Of a stretch of DNA of 36,228 bases, positions 24,006-29,285 are shown one piece after another (positions within the stretch are counted from its first letter, which is position 1; each line of letters starts with the position of its first letter). The stretch is from Bacteriovoracaceae bacterium (GTDB lineage Bacteria > Bdellovibrionota > Bacteriovoracia > Bacteriovoracales > Bacteriovoracaceae). Under the pieces are notes generated by a model. The model was not told the origin of the DNA. It did no database searches and saw only the letters and a program-made list of their open reading frames with translations. Both the position numbers and the translations under genes were made by a program. Location of the stretch: the NCBI GenBank assembly GCA_023954635.1, contig JAGSHI010000025.1, positions 1 to 36,228 of the forward strand. Reading direction: 5' to 3'.

Positions 24006-24023
24006 GAATCCCTTTGTGGATTC
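24006..24023. repeat. Inverted repeat, possible activator site upstream of the sigma-54-like promoter
   Basis: GAATCC (24006-24011) and GGATTC (24018-24023) are a perfect six-base inverted repeat around CTTTGT. It lies about 137 nt upstream of the sigma-54-like -24 element at 24158, the usual distance for enhancer-binding protein sites. It could equally be a weak stem-loop at the end of the preceding transcripts. Confidence 0.35.
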
Positions 24024-24157
24024 GATAGTTCTACTTTTATATAAAGCAAGGAATGGGCCAGAAATAAGCCATCAAAATCAGCAAGTTAGGTCGAAATTAG
24101 TGTCTAAAAAACTGACAGTGTATAAAGTTTTCATGACACTCTTGAAACGCAAAAATG

Positions 24158-24174
24158 TTGGCATGTCCTTTGCT
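24158..24174 (+). promoter_or_regulatory. Sigma-54-like promoter
   Basis: TTGGCATGTCCTTTGCT matches the sigma-54 pattern (YTGGCAYR, four bases, TTGCW). GG (24160-24161) and GC (24172-24173) have the required 12-nt offset. Transcription would begin near 24185, about 37 nt before the ATG at 24222. No sigma-54 activator gene is in the window. Confidence 0.55.
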
Positions 24175-24221
24175 CTATATAATTAGAAAGAGAGTTAAAT
24201 GTTCATAAAGAGGAGAGACCT

Positions 24222-24464
24222 ATGTCTAAACTATTGTCAGCTGTTGTAATTCTAACGTTTTCAATTTCATTAAGTGCTAATGCTGCTAAACCAAATGCCT
24301 GCTCAAGAGCAATTGAGAAATGTAATACTCAAATCCAAGCTCTTCATAATGCTCTTTCAACAGTTGAAGAAAGAGAGAATCCAAATGCGGCTGATCAGCT
24401 TAGTGACATGCTCCAAGATAAAAAGATTCAATGTGGAGATGATATTAGTGATGCTTGTTCATAA
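24222..24464 (+). CDS. Small secreted four-cysteine protein
   Basis: 80 residues with a classic signal peptide (1-21, ending ANA). The mature 59-residue part has cysteines at about 27, 34, 72 and 79, likely forming two disulfides around a charged helix (RAIEKCNTQIQALHNAL). I recognise no family. The strong AGGAG at 24211-24215 and the sigma-54-like promoter upstream suggest regulated, high-level expression. It is 23 nt from the next lipoprotein gene and probably co-transcribed with it. Confidence 0.7.
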   Translation: MSKLLSAVVILTFSISLSANAAKPNACSRAIEKCNTQIQALHNALSTVEERENPNAADQLSDMLQDKKIQCGDDISDACS

Positions 24465-26222: not shown

Positions 26223-29200
26223 ATGAACTTGAAGTTGAGTTTTGTACTTATCATTTCAAATCTGTTTGCACTTTCTGCATTTTCAAATGGCTGGGATCAG
26301 GCTACCTGTGAAGGTTTTAAAAATGTTAAAGAGAATGTCATTCCTGATGCTCCTTCAATGGATCAAGGGCATGCAGGTCTTTGTGCTTCCTTTGCAATGA
26401 GTTTAGCGATTTCAAAAGCCAAAGGTCTTTCTGGTAGTGATTCAATTTCACCTTTGTCCTTGGCAAAGTCTGTTGAGAATTGGAAGAAAAATTCAGAGAT
26501 TCCATCCAATAAGAATGTCAGCTTCTTTCCAGATACAGAAAATGAAATGAGAAAAAGAAGAATGAACTCTAGTTTGGAAGCGAAATTTCAAGAGAACAAA
26601 TATGGAGTTTCAAAAGGTGGTGCTGGTGCCGTCAATGATGGTGGTGGATCGAACCCTAGTTTTGGTGTGAACAAATATCGTAACTCTAGAATGGAAGGTG
26701 TAACTTTAGATGCTTTGGCCCAGGCTGCATTAGAAGAGAAATCGTTATGTAATCAAGGTGACTCTACATTTGCAGGGGAGAGTCTAGAGAACTGGACTCA
26801 AAACGGAAGAACAAACTATTCAATTTTTACTGACCAAAATTCTCATGAGAATAATTCTGGAAATGTTTCTCAGTTAATGGGAAGTATTTCAAACCTATAT
26901 AAAAATACAAAATCGAGAAGGTATAAAGCAGATGAACTAAAAGAAGTTTTTGAGAGATCTAAAATCATTTGTGATCGAGATATCAAAAAACCTATCATTG
27001 AAAGAATCGAAAAAATCTGTGACAAGTTTAATAAGAAAAGACAAACGACGGCATATTTTAATGGACTGATTAAACCATGTAATAAAAATAATGTTAAAAA
27101 CTATGTTGAAAAAAACATGAACGCTATTTCAAATAATGGTGGTACGACAGACCTTTTAGGAGCTGCGGAGAACCTTTCAAGTAAGTACATAAATGATGAA
27201 TTACTTAATGGTGGTTATGTAAGTGCAATTAAGGAAAGGGGACCTCTTAATGTTGATTTCGCCCCCGAGAAATTATCTCTTGATATTGAAAAACAGAAAC
27301 AAGCAATTGCGACTGCTGAGAAAAATGTAGTTGATACTGAAGCAGCTTATCAGGCAGGTCTAGCAGCTTGCCAAGCAGCAACTAAGAAACGTGAAAAAGA
27401 AGAACTTTGTGGCAAAGTGAAAAGAGGAAGTCCGTATAACGGTGAACTACTTACGGCCAGAGATCGCGCTAAGAGAAAATACCTACCTGATGCAAAGTCT
27501 AGACTCGCTAAGATGCAGAAAGACAAAGATAACATCGATCAATTTGTAGGTCCTTATCTTACGGGGAATGGGAAAGTCGACATCATGGCTGTTCTCAATA
27601 AAGAACTTGAAAAAGAAGGGATTGCTCCTGTTGGTGGAGATGAAGTTAAAACAGGTCTCTCTGAAATAAATCAAGAAAGAATTGATGTCATGAAAAGATT
27701 TGATTCTGAGTTCTCTATGAATGAAGGTCCTTATCAAGAAAAATATCAAGAAATTGTAAATAGAGTTGGGCGTGTAAGAGCTGTACAGATTGTAAGTCAG
27801 GTTCATGATGGGAAACCTATCAGAACTGATGATACTGTTGTTCTTGCTAAGGCCCGAGAGATTGCTCCTTTAGTAGAGAAGAGAAAAGAAAGGATATTAC
27901 ATCACGGAAAAACTCTTCCTAAAGAATTAGTAACGACAGAAGGTAATCCAATCCTTAGTCCCTATAGAATTAATAGTTACCTTAAAAGAAAAGTCGCTGA
28001 AGGTTCAACAAATGGTCTCATTGTAAGTAAAGCAAGAGAGGCGAGAGAAGGTGTCGTTGCACTCCAAGCGCGTGGAGATCTTTTTTACTTAAAGAATTGT
28101 TGGGGAAGAACGACTAAGCCCTGTAATTCAGACACAGTTGAAAAAAGAAGAAAAAGTTTATTACGTACTTTGAAAAAAAACAAAGTATCTCCGCAGGAAG
28201 CTCAGGCATTTGGCTCAGGAACTCAGCCATATAAAGACAATCTAACTAACACTCCTGATAAGTATCTTAATCTTTTAGAGTCTGGTGATTTAAATTCTGA
28301 AGAGGCCGGAACCATGTTCTTTTATATGAAAGAAGACTTTGCAGGAACGATTGAGGGAAGCGGTACAATTGGACGTAGGTCTAGCCTTGCTGAATTGCAA
28401 AGACAAGACTACCAAGGAATTTTAGATGGATTATTTGATACTGATAAGGCCAGAAAAAGAAAAGATAAAGGAATGAAGGCCAGTGATGGAAATCTCTTAA
28501 AGTTCATTGCAGGTGAGACAGGAGAATCGAGTGATATAACTCTAGCTATGATGGAGCAAGTGCGTGACCTTCGAAAATTTAAGTATGAAGAGCGTGAGCA
28601 GGTCAGAAAACACTCTGATGATATTTCACAACACAATAATGAGGCTATGATTGCTGATGCCGCTAAAAAATATGACAATTACAACCAATGTCTAGCTGAA
28701 GAGATTGAAGATAAACTCCTTCAAAAATATTCTAGAAATGGTGTTGTTCAGTGCTCAACAGACAATGATGTCATCTATGCGATGACGGCCCTTTCAAACC
28801 TCACTGATAGTCTTGGTGATATCCTTGATGATATTAGTAAAAAGCCAAATCCATTTTGGAATACAGTGATTGACTGTAAAAATCCTGAGAATAAAACCAA
28901 CGTAAGTGACTTGAAGATGACAGCTTATAAAATGAAAGATGAGCAACTGAAAGAGTATCCTCTTGCTCAACGAGAAGCCAAAATGGCAGATGCACTTAAA
29001 GAATCGTTAGTGAAAGATACACCTATGGTTGTAGGACTATGTCTGGGAATGTTTAAAAATGGCTGTAAAGAAGGTGATGGTCATGCGATGGCCGTTGTCG
29101 GGATGAAGGCCTCTTGGGATGGGTCCAAATGTAATGTAAGCTACAAACTCAAAAACTCTTGGGGTGACGATTGTTCGCGAACAACGAATGCTTCAAAAGG

Positions 29201-29285
29201 AATAAAATGCTCCAATGGTATTATTGATGTTCCTCACGGTGAGTTTATGAAAGGTACGTCTGAAGTTCTGTCAGTAGCGAAATAG
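26223..29285 (+). CDS. Giant secreted papain-like (C1) protein with split catalytic residues
   Basis: 1020 residues, signal peptide about 1-21. The N-terminus carries the papain-type oxyanion/nucleophile motif (DQGHAGLCASFA, Q48 and C54). The matching catalytic His and Asn appear only at the other end: H954 in GDGHAMAVVG and N978 in KLKNSWG. The 900 residues between are mostly charged and helical (for example EKQKQAIATAEKNVVDTEA), with an interspersed Cys-containing region, and resemble no domain I know. In normal papains the Cys-His distance is about 130. The Cys and His/Asn halves could still fold together, with the insert acting as a regulatory or substrate-handling domain. Not obviously truncated. 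Confidence 0.72.
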   Translation: MNLKLSFVLIISNLFALSAFSNGWDQATCEGFKNVKENVIPDAPSMDQGHAGLCASFAMSLAISKAKGLSGSDSISPLSLAKSVENWKKNSEIPSNKNVSFFPDTENEMRKRRMNSSLEAKFQENKYGVSKGGAGAVNDGGGSNPSFGVNKYRNSRMEGVTLDALAQAALEEKSLCNQGDSTFAGESLENWTQNGRTNYSIFTDQNSHENNSGNVSQLMGSISNLYKNTKSRRYKADELKEVFERSKIICDRDIKKPIIERIEKICDKFNKKRQTTAYFNGLIKPCNKNNVKNYVEKNMNAISNNGGTTDLLGAAENLSSKYINDELLNGGYVSAIKERGPLNVDFAPEKLSLDIEKQKQAIATAEKNVVDTEAAYQAGLAACQAATKKREKEELCGKVKRGSPYNGELLTARDRAKRKYLPDAKSRLAKMQKDKDNIDQFVGPYLTGNGKVDIMAVLNKELEKEGIAPVGGDEVKTGLSEINQERIDVMKRFDSEFSMNEGPYQEKYQEIVNRVGRVRAVQIVSQVHDGKPIRTDDTVVLAKAREIAPLVEKRKERILHHGKTLPKELVTTEGNPILSPYRINSYLKRKVAEGSTNGLIVSKAREAREGVVALQARGDLFYLKNCWGRTTKPCNSDTVEKRRKSLLRTLKKNKVSPQEAQAFGSGTQPYKDNLTNTPDKYLNLLESGDLNSEEAGTMFFYMKEDFAGTIEGSGTIGRRSSLAELQRQDYQGILDGLFDTDKARKRKDKGMKASDGNLLKFIAGETGESSDITLAMMEQVRDLRKFKYEEREQVRKHSDDISQHNNEAMIADAAKKYDNYNQCLAEEIEDKLLQKYSRNGVVQCSTDNDVIYAMTALSNLTDSLGDILDDISKKPNPFWNTVIDCKNPENKTNVSDLKMTAYKMKDEQLKEYPLAQREAKMADALKESLVKDTPMVVGLCLGMFKNGCKEGDGHAMAVVGMKASWDGSKCNVSYKLKNSWGDDCSRTTNASKGIKCSNGIIDVPHGEFMKGTSEVLSVAK

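Follow-up and report, generated by a model that had tools for sequence, protein, structure and literature searches.

The 36,228-nt window analysed here, contig C140 of a 3.70-Mb Bacteriovoracaceae genome (G000; assembly 98% complete), probably contains a bidirectional sigma-54 control region, in which an EBP acts on a block of dyads shared by two divergent promoters and which belongs to a family-wide regulon of exported proteins (Table 1). This reading draws on computed promoter elements, a recurrent motif at a set position, its partial conservation in a congener, and an export bias in the genes served; the sigma-54 and EBP system itself is of a known kind. Three points are inferred: EBP binding to the motif, an activating effect, and action on both sides. 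The EBP would bind the tandem TGTC/GACA dyads and, by ATP-driven remodelling, open RpoN-polymerase at the plus-strand element, leading to transcription of a gene for an 80-aa protein and probably also of the lipoprotein gene that follows. The same EBP would open the opposing promoter, driving a lipoprotein gene that is now a 52-codon remnant. The locus would then be one member of a family regulon that has the operator TGTMTAAASTTTAKACA and consists mostly of exported proteins.

Table 1. Positions of the features discussed, in window coordinates.
Feature	Position	Strand	Remarks
Sigma-54 -24/-12 element TGGCATGTCCTTTGCT	24159..24174	+	Exact match to TGGCAYRNNNNTTGCW
Second, divergent sigma-54 element TGGCCCATTCCTTGCT	24045..24060	-	One mismatch to consensus
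Proposed activator-binding block, common to both promoters	24099..24140		TGTC/GACA dyads: TGTCTAAAAAACTGACA, TGTATAAAGTTTTCATGACA
80-aa exported protein, four Cys	24222..24464	+	ORF; signal peptide by heuristic
Gly-rich lipoprotein gene, 532 aa	24488..26086	+	ORF; no family above cut-off
Divergent lipoprotein gene, 52 codons	23817..23975	-	Signal peptide and lipobox kept, body lost
GAATCC-N6-GGATTC inverted repeat	24006..24023		Exact; judged incidental

An earlier sequence-only reading had placed a near-consensus sigma-54 element with the GG-GC offset before the 80-residue ORF. The element is in fact exact, with GG at 24160-24161 and GC at 24172-24173, and a consensus scan returned no other exact match to TGGCAYRNNNNTTGCW within the window. 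Transcription is predicted to start near 24185, and 47 nt separate the element from the ATG at 24222. The genome encodes rpoN (PF04552 match on C116, E 5e-66; profile search) and the aligned congener G002 keeps the element as TGGCATGGGGCTTGCT, which, together with the exact site, argues for the sigma-54 control of the 80-aa gene proposed by the same reading. Exact sites numbered 12 across the window's genome against 1 for the reversed pattern, and sites with at most one mismatch 131 against 26 (154 against 41 in G002). At up to three mismatches, the window held 117 matches compared with 114.9 in shuffles; since such matches were no commoner than in shuffles, weight was given to close matches only. 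On sequence grounds, we regard the plus-strand site as real. Given a TATAAT at 24178-24183, the sequence would also allow a sigma-70-type start. That the 80-aa gene is transcribed chiefly from such a promoter, with the sigma-54 match unused, is nevertheless quite improbable: the closest -35-like hexamer, TTGGCA, lies just 14 nt from TATAAT, the consensus scan found no sigma-70 site at the plus promoter, and G002 has TATAAA in place of TATAAT yet keeps both sigma-54 hexamers.

The consensus TGGCAYRN4TTGCW, with its GG and GC doublets, is matched exactly by the plus element and with one mismatch by the opposing element, the only one-mismatch sigma-54 site in the window. Its predicted start lies near 24034, and its G002 counterpart is TGGCAAGGACCTTGCT. 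The earlier reading missed both this site and the dyad block, seeing half of a divergent pair. In G002, the ortholog of the 80-aa gene likewise lies opposite a lipoprotein gene (286 codons), and residues 1-34 of the 52-codon gene are 62% identical to the 286-aa protein encoded there; no further match to this protein in the window was better than E 2.9. The minus-strand gene is a remnant that keeps its promoter, signal peptide, and lipobox, not the protein body. When the intergenic region was aligned with that of G002, conservation was seen in both sigma-54 elements, in the RBS of the 80-aa gene, and in a block of some 35 nt that ends near 24140.

Within the block, the first dyad (24101-24117) matched the family palindrome at 12 of 17 positions and the second (24119-24138) at 13 of 17. 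Upstream distances from the predicted plus start to the dyad centres are about 57 and 76 nt, and those from the predicted minus start about 75 and 95 nt. The motif, which is recurrent, positioned, and partly conserved, is a candidate activator site at enhancer distance from the plus promoter. The G002 alignment showed good conservation of the second dyad; in the first dyad, the inner part was well conserved and the outer TGTC was not. The perfect half-site TGTCTAAA occurs in the first dyad in the window and in the second in G002. In G002 the first dyad is weaker, and the counterpart of the second is TGTCTAAAGTTTTTATGACA; the strong half-site thus appears to have moved while the block was kept.

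The sequence-only reading had instead put an activator site at the GAATCC/GGATTC repeat. The repeat exists, and its two perfect 6-bp arms, at about -162 to -179 relative to the plus promoter, are in enhancer range. The window, however, has 144 perfect inverted repeats with 6-nt arms and loops of 3-10 nt, and in 21 of these each arm contains at least three G/C. A scan of 1.31 Mb of loci, a set that includes overlapping loci and unrelated regulator loci, returned matches only in the two copies of this window locus. The repeat was incomplete in the aligned stretch of G002, which does not keep the two arms together, and it lies downstream of the predicted minus-strand start (~24034) and before the minus ATG (23975), which places it in the leader predicted for the minus-strand gene. 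Because it is non-recurrent in the loci scanned, is not fully kept in the congener, and lies downstream of the predicted minus start, it was dropped as a candidate operator. It is very probably not the activator site, the chance that it is being very slight; the evidence points to the block at 24099-24140.

To characterize the motif beyond this locus, we sampled 73 sigma-54 sites, comprising 50 of the 131 in G000, 20 of the 154 in G002, and three added by hand (both G002 sites of the window locus and the window minus site, all motif-positive). Fifty of the 73 were intergenic, i.e., outside ORFs of at least 150 aa, and 142 nt upstream were examined. The most enriched 8-mer upstream of these 50 sites was TGTCTAAA, found in 14 sequences compared with 0.47 in approximate dinucleotide shuffles. 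On either strand, TGTMTAAA occurred at 15 of the 50 (12 of 47 when the hand-added sites were left out), compared with a mean of 1.2 and a maximum of 5 over 100 shuffle sets, and at none of the 23 sigma-54 sites inside ORFs. The half-site was absent from the other 35 intergenic sites.

The palindrome TGTMTAAASTTTAKACA had been read by eye from G000 sequences, and we next looked for it in 59 genomes irrespective of sigma-54. Counts exceeded those of the reversed control in, for example, G009 (24 vs 2), G012 (18 vs 2), G023 (18 vs 3), G016 (34 vs 12), and G000 (25 vs 11), and in G002 by only 11 vs 6. They were not above control in several family genomes, among them G014 (4 vs 7), G019 (6 vs 10), G036 (3 vs 9), G021 (2 vs 7), and G027 (11 vs 14). 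In three other genera, the palindrome lay approximately 40-90 nt upstream of sigma-54 sites. In G012, G023, and G016 taken together, 10 of 61 palindromes had a sigma-54 site with at most one mismatch within 220 bp pointing away, vs 3 sites pointing towards. Among the 32 sigma-54 sites with at most two mismatches near these 61 palindromes, 8 start 0-50 nt downstream, 17 at 50-100 nt, and 7 elsewhere. A joint search for the half-site and a correctly spaced sigma-54 site gave 87 matches in 37 family genomes, some of them resembling chance hits within genes, compared with 8 for the reversed pattern and 16 when the sigma-54 spacer was one base too long. At least one match was found in 29 of the 37 genomes, and G000 contributed 3 of the 87. 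The same search of 22 outgroup genomes of the phylum gave 14 matches vs 2 reversed; the motif may therefore extend beyond the family. Both motif and sigma-54 site were also kept in a second ortholog pair (G000 L031 and G002 L097, 64.5% identical).

Binding at the TGTCTAAA block and the sign of regulation are both predictions, and the block could alternatively bind a repressor or other non-EBP regulator that overlaps the sigma-54 promoters, with activation coming from elsewhere. A less regular second element, similar to CTAAS-N-TGA, does lie nearer some promoters (5 of 50 vs 0.53 in shuffles). We consider such a regulator improbable, since in the pairs listed 37-88 nt separate the palindrome from the -24 box downstream of it, as for an enhancer site, and TGTCTAAA is the top enriched element at promoters where an EBP is obligatory.

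The genes behind these promoters are strongly biased toward export. For 40 of the 50 intergenic sigma-54 sites, from two genomes of the genus, an ORF of 50 aa or more begins 5-160 nt downstream, and a signal heuristic predicted an export signal in 35 of these 40 compared with 31 of 130 background ORFs (Fisher P 4e-13), the latter being drawn from regulator loci that are orthologous across genomes and hence not independent. The heuristic gives some false positives, as L060 resembles a cytoplasmic synthase and L047 and L052 are doubtful. It also scored 18 of the window's own 29 ORFs as exported, so the neighbourhood is itself rich in exported proteins. Seven of ten motif-linked proteins had no Pfam family at E 0.001; the other three were a peptidase C92, a subtilase (fragment), and an NQR2/RnfD protein with FG-GAP. 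The earlier suggestion of condition-specific envelope factors is partly borne out, in that sigma-54 control and the export bias would fit an induced envelope or exported factor. In genomes where many exported proteins are without a known family, the motif could help to draw up lists of candidate exported effectors of the lifestyle. In G000 (C40), a motif-bearing sigma-54 promoter was also seen before a gene that by eye looks like an AraC-type regulator (L246, 1611-2132, +), and the regulon may thus act on a second tier. Separately, an exported protein of 1020 aa encoded at 26223-29285 (+) of the window shows papain-like motifs on inspection by eye and has no Pfam or NCBIfam match above cut-off.

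The description of the 80-residue product as a secreted protein with four Cys held up on the ORF, the heuristic signal peptide, and the Cys of its ortholog. Of the 58 relatives searched, one gave this ortholog, namely the congener G002, with 44% identity and all four Cys conserved; the other congener, G001, did not. AlphaFold2, run on a two-sequence alignment, predicted a helical hairpin with helices at residues 26-51 and 54-79 and a mean pLDDT of 78; block means were 90-95 from residue 31 on and below 50 in the signal peptide. In the model, Cys27 and Cys34 lie on helix 1 and Cys71 and Cys79 on helix 2, and as the Cys are spread over both helices, two disulphides likely staple the hairpin. A fold search with the model gave no match at E 0.001 or better, and DUF1090 scored below the Pfam gathering cut-off (14.8 vs 24.4 bits, E 0.028). 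Most likely, RpoN controls the synthesis of this small protein, which either stays in the periplasm or is released. The Gly-rich lipoprotein gene downstream is probably the second gene of the same operon, judged by spacing: the gap is short, which makes cotranscription plausible. A genome-collection scan found no relative of this lipoprotein.

PF00158 was matched 11 times in the window's genome, with GAFTGA present in E1 (L105), E2 (L106), and L108, and GAFSGA in L107. E1, on contig C67, has a receiver domain (PF00072), an AAA+ Sigma54_activat domain, and a Fis-type HTH. It adjoins metK; two flagellar rod genes and fliE lie approximately 4 kb away on the same strand, with a TPR-like gene and a degenerate AAA+ gene between E1 and the rod genes. 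Among named relatives of E1, the best is 61% identical and comes from a Bacteriovoracaceae MAG. The AAA+/HTH half of E1 is also related to a Pseudomonas and a Photobacterium protein with the FleQ domain PF06490, whose recognition helix, RRTTLVEKMRKYG[ML], resembles NRTTLIEKMKKKGM of E1, and E1 thus combines Sigma54_activat and a Fis-type HTH with a FleQ-like recognition helix. The helix NRTTLIEK[MLI] was present in 28 of the 30 best E1 matches opened, as well as in G028 and G005; the strict pattern gave 25, with G017, G023, and G034 having I at the last place. The best E1 matches of G021 and G027 had other HTH helices, and G027 nonetheless gave three joint half-site and sigma-54 matches. GSFTGA replaces GAFTGA in many E1 relatives. 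An E1-type regulator of 352 codons in G028 (L383, C170) lacks the receiver and keeps the HTH and the metK neighbour.

Co-occurrence of E1 with motif-bearing promoters gave a Fisher P of 0.008 among genomes at least 90% complete and 0.012 among all 37, with E1 scored by sequence identity and G003, G008, G010, G030, and G032 not opened. It was set aside as evidence because G028 and G005 were scored as lacking E1 yet have an E1-type HTH; G028 has a sigma-54 promoter with the TGTCTAAA half-site (L094). The contrast then comes down to G021 and G027, which combine other HTHs with palindrome counts not above control. G008 (93% complete) has motif-bearing promoters (L101, L248) and no close E1 ortholog among the matches listed, its EBPs being unopened, and on this comparison it speaks against E1 as the activator. 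E1 is also present in G014, G019, and G036 despite palindrome counts that are not above control. The palindrome, at up to three mismatches, was not found near E1 or E2 genes in 17 loci for each, the E1 set including L190 and L191, which are not E1 orthologs; two sigma-54 sites with at most one mismatch were found in these loci (L188 and L191). The E2 stretch in the window's genome ends 48 nt upstream of the kinase gene, making this a weak test of autoregulation. E1 is the best candidate activator, not proven, and the least certain part of the explanation; its chance of being the activator among those possible may be close to even, if slightly below it.

Alternatively, the promoters could be sigma-54 dependent with the block bound by E2, a ~525-aa EBP, or another EBP rather than E1, a reading that we regard as possible, if doubtful. 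E2 (contig C167) lies in an operon of a histidine kinase, the GAFTGA response regulator, and signal peptidase II, and was found in all 16 relatives searched, 70-93% identical and with a nearly invariant HTH. An operon with this lipoprotein signal peptidase would fit a lipoprotein regulon, but E2 is equally present without motif enrichment, as in G021 and G027. The ~525-aa EBP, encoded next to a carboxyltransferase gene, was present in all six genomes opened for it, but is not among the 11 PF00158 matches of the window's genome, which has the motif. The recognition helices of both are unlike that of FleQ. L108, too, carries GAFTGA.

The preference for E1 among these candidates is consistent with its likeness to FleQ/FlrA. 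The FleQ motif given in the relevant part of PMC8125075, GTCaNTAAAtTGAC (GTC..TAAA..GAC), resembles the present core GTCTAAASTTTAGAC. The AAA+/HTH portion of E1 is 48-50% identical to Photobacterium and Pseudomonas fulva proteins, whose recognition helix, RTTL[VI]EKM[RK]K, is close to its own, and E1 is encoded near flagellar genes. Unlike FleQ, E1 has the receiver PF00072 and no N-terminal PF06490 domain, and the family dyad, to which E1 binding is a prediction, is one base longer than that of FleQ. Its mode of action may be that of FleQ, but we do not class E1 as FleQ. It is a tentative idea, and rather unlikely as a whole, that in Bacteriovoracaceae a FleQ-like EBP encoded near flagellar genes has been taken over to serve, via TGTCTAAASTTTAGACA, as the master activator of exported-protein and lipoprotein genes in a sigma-54 regulon. 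The QseF/GlrR site acts at the sigma-54 glmY promoter. That TGTC/GACA dyad is likewise tied to an EBP, but is given as TGTC-N10-GACA in the pertinent part of PMC8745638, compared with N9 in the family palindrome. Both E1 and E2 fell below the cut-off of the GlrR model.

In the view of Francke et al. 2011 (PMC3162934), as put in parts of that paper, sigma-54 controls the bacterial exterior. The locus resembles the sigma-54/EBP regulons described there in its -24/-12 promoters, AAA+ activators, upstream dyads, and exterior targets including lipoproteins, and differs in that the present targets are mostly exported proteins themselves; the main text of that paper does not name Bdellovibrio. In Bdellovibrio bacteriovorus, the FliA attack-phase regulon covers surface proteins and proteases, according to sections of PMC3627812, and might be a parallel case of a flagellar regulator taken over for such products in a predator, although it uses sigma-28 promoters and belongs to another bacterium. 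The third of attack-phase promoters left over is ascribed in the same sections to other regulators, and the main text makes no mention of RpoN; an RpoN-like gene, bd0843, is listed for this species in part of PMC3464611. Among the matches listed from openly licensed PMC papers, none was on the operator by title for the string TTTAGACA, and no title concerned the regulon for sigma-54 or RpoN in Bdellovibrio, Bacteriovorax, or Halobacteriovorax; these searches turned up no description of the operator motif or of an exported-protein regulon based on it. The timing of exported-protein release in predatory bacteria and their relatives is poorly known, and the operator motif, the promoter class, and a short list of possible activators together would make a testable regulon.

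A second operator class, approximately TGTTYC-N5-GRAACA by eye, was seen at other sigma-54 promoters (L268, L269, L283, and L286 in G002; L007 in G000), mostly before genes for exported proteins. A related dyad pattern occurred at 4 of the 50 intergenic sites, compared with 0.13 in shuffles, and at 1 of the 23 sites inside ORFs.
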